This document shows, piece after piece, positions 14,591 to 16,214 of a stretch of DNA of 33,120 bases. Numbering within the stretch: the first letter of the stretch is position 1; every line of letters begins with the position of its first letter. This DNA is from an uncultured Elusimicrobiales bacterium (GTDB taxonomy: Bacteria; Elusimicrobiota; Elusimicrobia; Elusimicrobiales; Elusimicrobiaceae). The stretch covers positions 1 through 33,120 of the forward strand of contig CALVFE010000016.1 in the NCBI GenBank assembly GCA_944326765.1. Reading direction: 5' to 3'. The notes under the pieces were generated by a model, which was not told the origin of the DNA, did no database searches, and worked only from the letters and a program-made list of their open reading frames with translations. Position numbers and translations under genes: made by a program.

Positions 14591-14629
14591 TAAAAAGAGC
14601 CCTCCGCATTTATCCAACGCGGAGGACTC
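14591..14629 (-). terminator. Terminator of the minus-strand structured RNA
   Basis: On the minus strand GAGTCCTCCGC pairs with GCGGAGGGCTC (11 pairs, one G-U) around an 11-base loop, followed by five T. No minus-strand protein gene ends just before it, so it must end a non-coding transcript. Confidence 0.85.
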
Positions 14630-15001
14630 ATCTAGTCGACTCTTCCATGATTACTCACTATCCCCAAATTAGAGGTTTGGCTGACAGTCAAGAGTTTTGC
14701 GGTGCCGCCCGATACCTGACGCCGGTTGCTCCCTTCCATATCCTTGGCATACTCCCGCTGTCCTCAGACAGCAGGTCCAAAGCTTGTGAAACGGTCATTG
14801 CACCCCGTGCAATCCTGCTTCGTACGGTCTATTCCTCAAAGAACTCTTGTTTTCTGCTTTTTCGGTCTTCCGGCCGCCACGCTCTTCGCGCCCGCGTACC
14901 TACCAACTCGCAGCAGTTGTCATCCGTTCGCGTCGCCCAACGTCAACAGGAGAGGCTGGCGCGCCGGGGAAGTTTTCTGTACAACCACTTCCTCCGGGGA
15001 C
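14592..15001 (-). ncRNA. Unidentified structured RNA of about 410 nt
   Basis: A promoter (TTGAAT, 16 bases, TATACT at 15008-15035) and a strong terminator bracket a minus-strand stretch with no credible ORF but many clean helices. These include CCGG(A)GGAAG/CTTCCCCGG at the 5' end (14964-14997), ATTGCAC/GTGCAAT (14797-14813) enclosed by GCAGG/CCTGC, and GCTGTC/GACAGC on a TGAG tetraloop (14757-14772). The invariant strings of RNase P RNA (GAGGAAAGTCC, GGTAAGAGC) and a tmRNA tRNA-like end are not visible. A string GGAAGGGAGCAACC resembles the signal recognition particle RNA core, but its 5' partner does not pair canonically and 410 nt is long for that RNA. Identity is open. Confidence 0.7.
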
Positions 15002-15007
15002 ATTCAT

Positions 15008-15035
15008 AGTATAATGGATTTTGAGCCAAATTCAA
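15008..15035 (-). promoter_or_regulatory. Promoter of the structured RNA
   Basis: The minus strand has TTGAAT, 16 bases, then TATACT, placing the start at about 15001. It lies just past the stop of the upstream regulator gene, so the RNA can be made independently of it. Confidence 0.65.
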
Positions 15036-15786: not shown

Positions 15787-15816
15787 TTGACAAACACTAA
15801 CAATACTTACTATACT
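15787..15816 (+). promoter_or_regulatory. Near-consensus sigma-70 promoter reading into the folded region
   Basis: TTGACA is a perfect -35, followed by 18 bases and TATACT. The start would be near 15824, about 295 bases before the nearest + strand ORF. It therefore drives either a small RNA or a long structured leader. Confidence 0.75.
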
Positions 15817-15823
15817 AGCTTTT

Positions 15824-16106
15824 GTAAGAGGCGCCGCAACCGCCTCTTATCTTACGGACGTACTTGGTTTTATCTTCCATCCAATGAAGAATTCCAAACA
15901 CGGAGCGGTTTAGCCATATAAACCGGCGCCGCGCCAGCGGCGTGTTGGCTCCGTTACGTCTAAATTGCGCAATTCTGCCAGGAAGGCGCAATTCTATTGT
16001 AGCAAATAAAAAGCCGTTTGGGTTAGTAAAGTTAAGGTTTTAGGAGATCCGCCCCCATGTGAAAAGGGTTTGTCGGCTGCCTAACTTGACTTTACTGCCC
16101 GACGGT
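15824..16106 (+). other. Strongly folded non-coding region (RNA candidate)
   Basis: Successive helices are TAAGAGGCG/CGCCTCTTA; GACGTA (15857) with TACGTC (15955) enclosing a CTTGG-type side hairpin and ACGGAGC (15900)/GCTCCGT (15948), which itself encloses GGTTT/AAACC and GCGCCGC/GCGGCGT; then AATTGCGC/GCGCAATT; then an imperfect 25-plus-pair hairpin at 16013-16106. The nested junctions are what a structured RNA looks like. The strand is uncertain: the + promoter at 15787 is strong, but the minus strand has TGCTACAAT near 16000 and a TTTTTATTT run after the long hairpin. No known RNA family was recognised. Confidence 0.6.
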
Positions 16107-16118
16107 TGGAGAAGAAGT

Positions 16119-16214
16119 ATGGGCGTTATTTTATTAAAAATACTCGTCAGCGGGGTGGTGTTTGTCGGGATTTTGGGGTTTCTTTCCGATGTGATTGATT
16201 TTTTGGGAGAATAA
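16119..16214 (+). CDS. 31-residue single-span membrane peptide
   Basis: ATG at 16119 follows GGAG at 16108 with ideal 7-base spacing and encodes 31 residues starting MGVILLKILVSGVV. A hydrophobic stretch of about 20 residues is followed by an acidic end (SDVIDFLGE), typical of small inner-membrane peptides. It sits after the folded region and 43 bases before the YfcC-type carrier. It could be a regulatory subunit of that carrier or a toxin-like peptide; no family was recognised. It is short enough for most gene callers to miss. Confidence 0.6.
   Translation: MGVILLKILVSGVVFVGILGFLSDVIDFLGE

Follow-up and report, generated by a model that had tools for sequence, protein, structure and literature searches.

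Within the 33,120-nucleotide stretch of DNA analyzed here (the window), a structured RNA of about 410 nt, which we call RNA-1, lies on the minus strand at positions 14592 to 15002, its 5′ end being placed from the promoter. This promoter, TTGAAT-N16-TATACT (15008 to 15035, minus strand), consists of TTGAAT at 15035-15030 and TATACT at 15013-15008, with 16 nt between them, and at the other end of the RNA is an intrinsic terminator (14592 to 14629, minus strand). The gene immediately upstream of RNA-1, also on the minus strand, encodes a 231-aa regulator with HTH_3 and LexA/S24-like domains (P0001; 15045 to 15740). Running divergently from the regulator is RNA-2 (15823 to 16118, plus strand), a second conserved structured leader. 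Its promoter, TTGACA-N18-TATACT (15787 to 15816, plus strand), overlaps GTTAG/CTAAC repeats that form a putative operator for the regulator. Behind RNA-2 lies a small hydrophobic open reading frame of 31 aa, MGVILLKILVSGVVFVGILGFLSDVIDFLGE (16119 to 16214, plus strand).

An earlier note on this DNA, made from the sequence alone, had described RNA-1 as a 410-nt structured RNA that forms its own transcription unit, with a TTGAAT-16-TATACT promoter and a terminator, and that belongs to no recognized family. Both elements are indeed there (the terminator at about 14629-14592), and both are conserved in relatives. A promoter of the TTGWTTTT...TATACT type, nearly invariant, was found at all 62 of 62 RNA-1 homologues. 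One genome of the genus (G070) has kept an intact RNA-1 although the regulator and RNA-2 have been lost, so RNA-1 can stand alone. We considered the idea that RNA-1 is an attenuator of a downstream gene and rejected it, the downstream gene of the window being convergent and the downstream neighbors varying among relatives.

Of the 66 genomes of the genus Candidatus Avelusimicrobium, about 63 have a single copy of RNA-1, as judged from search models and synteny together. The 1.49-Mb genome to which the window belongs (G000) likewise has one copy. Of 61 genomes screened with blastn, 17 had RNA-1, and each of these belonged to the same genus. A covariance model built on its core (R1) gave matches in 48 genus genomes. 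Another 15 genomes of the genus carried the neighboring regulator without an R1 match, and in 14 of these synteny revealed a more diverged RNA-1 at the equivalent place. These diverged forms have the same type of promoter, the terminator, and the very short reading frame (mini-ORF) described below. A wider model (R2), run on 295 genomes of the phylum from 90 genera, recovered RNA-1 in 54 members of the genus and gave no credible match outside it. Among weak matches, one genome outside the genus (G108, E 0.03) was rejected, as it had no such promoter, regulator, or mini-ORF, and another match to R2 (G117, E 0.084) was taken as chance. The records of genomes with RNA-1 are those of uncultured Elusimicrobiales, including Candidatus Avelusimicrobium, and come largely from gut samples.

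We then compared RNA-1 with known RNA families. An Rfam covariance-model search of the minus strand, as the earlier note had proposed, returned no family at E ≤ 10 inside RNA-1, and none of the Rfam 15 families, OLE, ROOL, and GOLLD included, reached its gathering cutoff there. The diverged RNA-1 forms of eight relatives were also without a match at E ≤ 1; the same search gave two chance-level matches in the flanking DNA of one locus. We found no description of RNA-1 in the literature searched. With its promoter, terminator, genus-wide conservation, covariation (see below), and lack of an Rfam match, RNA-1 is well shown to be a new RNA family, and the description in the earlier note stands.

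The candidates named in that note were a ribozyme, a large regulatory RNA, and a highly diverged housekeeping RNA. A housekeeping RNA, that is, an RNase P RNA, transfer-messenger RNA (tmRNA), or signal recognition particle (SRP) RNA, would suit a genus-wide, single-copy gene, and the SRP RNA models RF00169 and RF01854 find no SRP RNA in 41 genomes of the order, although the two models fail in some of the control genomes too. However, the genome of the window has a canonical RNase P RNA elsewhere (G000:C10:29219-29559, 210 bits), as well as a real tmRNA (G000:C12:11463-11809). RNA-1 itself matches neither RF00010 nor RF00023, and no tRNA-like part was found in it. These two identities can be excluded. 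Neither RF00169 nor RF01854 matched RNA-1. Profiles of the SRP54 GTPase (PF00448) and M domain (PF02978) gave nothing over cutoff in 13 of 13 genomes (G000-G008, G037-G040) and were positive in 14 of 14 controls; a scarcity of Ffh and FtsY in Elusimicrobia has been noted previously (PMC7987157). A 14-base string, GGAAGGGAGCAACC, had been likened to the SRP RNA core, but it is peculiar to this genome, its sisters reading GGGACGGAGCAACC or similar, and we therefore regard the resemblance as due to chance. Because the SRP RNA models and SRP54 profiles fail and Ffh and FtsY are scarce, it is very unlikely that RNA-1 is a diverged SRP RNA, and a housekeeping RNA of any of the three kinds is scarcely credible. 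A ribozyme or a large regulatory RNA remains from the original list. As a separate observation, the order Elusimicrobiales seems to be without an SRP pathway, judging from the missing SRP54 domains and SRP RNA in the genomes just mentioned.

The predicted folding energy of RNA-1 was −159.2 kcal/mol, compared with −136.1 ± 4.7 kcal/mol for shuffled sequences (z = −4.9), and RNA-1 folded better than every shuffle. The individual helices named in the earlier note are all present. The alignments of the RNA-1 groups have a common plan, in which a helix, P1, pairs the 5′ end with sequence immediately in front of the mini-ORF. In the window, the 5′ strand of P1, UGUCCCC (14996 to 15002, minus strand), pairs in the group fold with the 3′ strand, GGGGAU (14660 to 14665, minus strand), directly upstream of the ribosome-binding region, and the alignment contains compensatory changes. 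P1 is not universal, local hairpins being found instead in group D. The domain has multiple helices with two CAGAAAA...AACUG closures, a GCGCGAAGAGCGY hairpin, and a long arm in which the conserved strings UUCACAAGC and GGAUAUGGG surround a variable apical hairpin. The conserved core, CAGAAAA...CUUGACUG (14685 to 14856, minus strand), was the basis of models R1 and R2.

Consensus folds lay far below column-shuffled controls in the alignments of five RNA-1 lineages; the value for group D was −167, compared with −63 ± 6 after column shuffling. Pairs changed on both sides numbered 35, 38, 47, and 55 in groups A to D, respectively, and 0 of 300 shuffles reached these counts. In a separate count of pairs in the core, 94.9% were paired, and both sides had changed in 20 of 35 pairs, as against 0 of 500 shuffles; slid structures collapsed. 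Covarying pairs, which the earlier note had suggested looking for among homologues, therefore exist beyond shuffled controls. Since the lineage alignments covary this heavily, the fold is under selection, and our data show that the base pairs of RNA-1 are held by it.

The earlier note had seen no credible protein in RNA-1. This is correct for proteins, but a conserved six-codon frame, ATGGAAGAGTCGACTAGATGA (MEESTR and a stop codon; 14648 to 14628, minus strand), had been overlooked. Preceded by an SD-like GTGAG, this start-and-stop frame is wedged between the structured domain and the terminator of RNA-1. An ATG, 4 to 5 further codons, and a stop codon were present in 62 of 63 homologues, with total lengths of 5 or 6 codons only; the sole exception (G030) had no recognizable mini-ORF and no recognizable terminator. 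In the window, pairing in the terminator starts with the second base of the stop codon, and the same holds for 54 of the 62. The stop codon is TGA in 27 homologues, TAG in 23, and TAA in 12, and a minimum spanning tree of the RNAs implies about 10 switches from stop to stop and several changes in length, every one of them of 3 nt. A comparable mini-ORF arose in 0.9% of shuffled segments. The Shine-Dalgarno sequence is clear in group D (GGGGAAGGAAAACAAATG), a good match in group A, and weak in groups B, C, and E. The encoded peptides have a recurrent polar composition, M-[EKN]-[EQK]-[SCLA]-[TA].

To look for a selected peptide, we sought an excess of synonymous change in the mini-ORF. It was absent: on tree edges that are not fully independent, there were 14 synonymous and 78 nonsynonymous codon changes, compared with a neutral expectation of 19 synonymous changes. 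Since the start, stop, and frame are retained and the peptide varies much as neutral sequence would, we take the mini-ORF to be translated, a conclusion that is strongly supported by these comparisons. The case is strong rather than proof, because the tree edges are partly dependent and because A-rich sequence, which raises the frequency of stop codons above average in front of terminators, favors stops there. Given the near-neutral codon changes, selection appears to act on translation of the mini-ORF and not on its peptide. This suggests that a ribosome sitting at the mini-ORF matters more than the peptide made.

The regulator, which adjoins RNA-1, was found in 63 of the 66 genus genomes. 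The linkage is tight, yet natural deletions separate the two: G070 has RNA-1 beside dcuC (locus L184), and G071 has the regulator and no RNA-1 (locus L185) and so lives without this RNA. The outer neighbors vary: of 56 cases, 26 have dcuC on one flank and 17 have an ABC transporter on the opposite flank. In lineage C, which is deep, the regulator has an intact S24 GDSM motif and scores against LexA (E value 1.5e-9), though under the LexA cutoff. This autocleavage motif has been lost in most lineages, including the copy in the window. RNA-2, which had no Rfam match, has copies upstream of the regulator in relatives (L127-L182), and all 55 matched genomes have a TTGACAAA-TATACT promoter that overlaps GTTAG/CTAAC repeats. 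We rejected the idea that the regulator controls RNA-1 through such GTTAG sites, as they are absent from 53 of 62 RNA-1 promoters and present at 48 of 55 RNA-2 promoters. Look-alikes of the small hydrophobic ORF occur behind RNA-2 in many relatives in lineages A, D, and E and resemble TisB/DinQ-type peptides by eye.

This neighborhood invites a reading in which the regulator acts as a LexA-like switch, repressing RNA-2 and a TisB/DinQ-like membrane peptide, while RNA-1 serves as the constitutive counter-RNA, as IstR-1 does for tisB. The LexA-like S24 domain, the conserved repeats at the RNA-2 promoter, the hydrophobic ORFs behind RNA-2, and the position of RNA-1 beside the regulator in nearly all genomes are consistent with it. 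Cognate RNA-1/RNA-2 pairs, however, formed duplexes hardly better than noncognate ones (−167 versus −164 kcal/mol; the test, on unconstrained duplexes, is an insensitive one), no hydrophobic ORF turned up in most of lineages B and C even though RNA-1 is retained there, and G070 has RNA-1 without RNA-2. We consider such a switch quite unlikely. Less likely again is that RNA-1 is an mRNA in which a long regulatory leader precedes the frame for a product of 5 or 6 residues, perhaps a signal peptide or the precursor of an antibiotic in the manner of the microcin C7 peptide MccA. A conserved start-stop frame beside a regulator gene and the recurrent polar composition would agree with this, but the codon changes are about neutral, RNA-1 persists without the regulator in G070, and no constant modifying enzyme adjoins RNA-1, since the outer neighboring genes vary.

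RNA-1 could also be a purely noncoding structured RNA or ribozyme that functions wholly through its large domain, the reading frame in the tail being an aid to stability or a by-product of the terminator sequence. Most of the covariation and conserved strings do fall in the domain, the peptide is not conserved, and the Shine-Dalgarno sequence is weak in some groups. Against this, the ATG, the frame, and the in-frame stop have been kept in 62 homologues despite stop switches and 3-nt length changes, and group D has its clear Shine-Dalgarno sequence. We think a wholly noncoding function unlikely. The GGA motifs in RNA-1 also led us to consider a CsrB-type sponge.

The reading that we favor, while holding it tentatively, is that RNA-1 is a translation-dependent regulatory RNA working through a ribosome at the mini-ORF; its cellular role is something that we infer only. 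RNA-1 would be made as an independent RNA from its own strong promoter, and a ribosome initiating at the mini-ORF would be its working element, as either ligand or load. When a 70S ribosome initiates, its leading half covers the message to about +16 from the AUG; in RNA-1, the foot of the hairpin stands at +17 from the A of the AUG when the frame has 5 codons and at +20 when it has 6. The space between domain and hairpin thus fits about one ribosome, which could be parked there or turned over. Where P1 exists, the ribosome might compete with this helix, and its occupancy would then switch the fold or the stability of the domain, with RNA-1 acting in trans. Somewhat more tentatively still, RNA-1 may represent a new class of large bacterial RNA, a ribosome sensor or trap, whose action depends on a ribosome translating a sequence-indifferent frame of 5 or 6 codons. 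If this is true, RNA-1 would be unusual in that its ligand is the ribosome itself, with translation kept and the peptide left free. In any case, RNA-1 adds a large, genus-wide structured RNA to those in Rfam and, as far as the literature searched shows, to those published, and its host lineage seems, in addition, to have lost the pathway that depends on SRP.

Several known systems share features with RNA-1. Like it, tmRNA (RF00023) is structured, about 350 to 400 nt long, and engages the ribosome through a short internal reading frame; tmRNA, however, includes a tRNA-like domain, and its tag frame lacks a start codon, whereas the RNA-1 frame would be initiated at an AUG. OLE, GOLLD, ROOL, and raiA resemble RNA-1 in their size of several hundred nucleotides (less for raiA), their complex covarying folds, and their lack of a protein product. 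RNA-1 differs from them in having no Rfam match, in its confinement to one genus, and in the mini-ORF at the foot of its terminator. The type I toxin systems hok, tisB/IstR-1, and dinQ/agrB also have structured transcripts with very short ORFs, and tisB and dinQ are under a LexA-type regulator, a further likeness to the RNA-1 locus, but the RNA-1 peptide is hydrophilic, 5 to 6 residues long, and not conserved in sequence. Frames of a few codons are found in the bar minigenes of phage lambda, which act through peptidyl-tRNA drop-off, and in mccA of microcin C7. Neither of these has a conserved structured domain of 350 nt, and MccA is a defined heptapeptide, whereas the peptide of the RNA-1 mini-ORF drifts.
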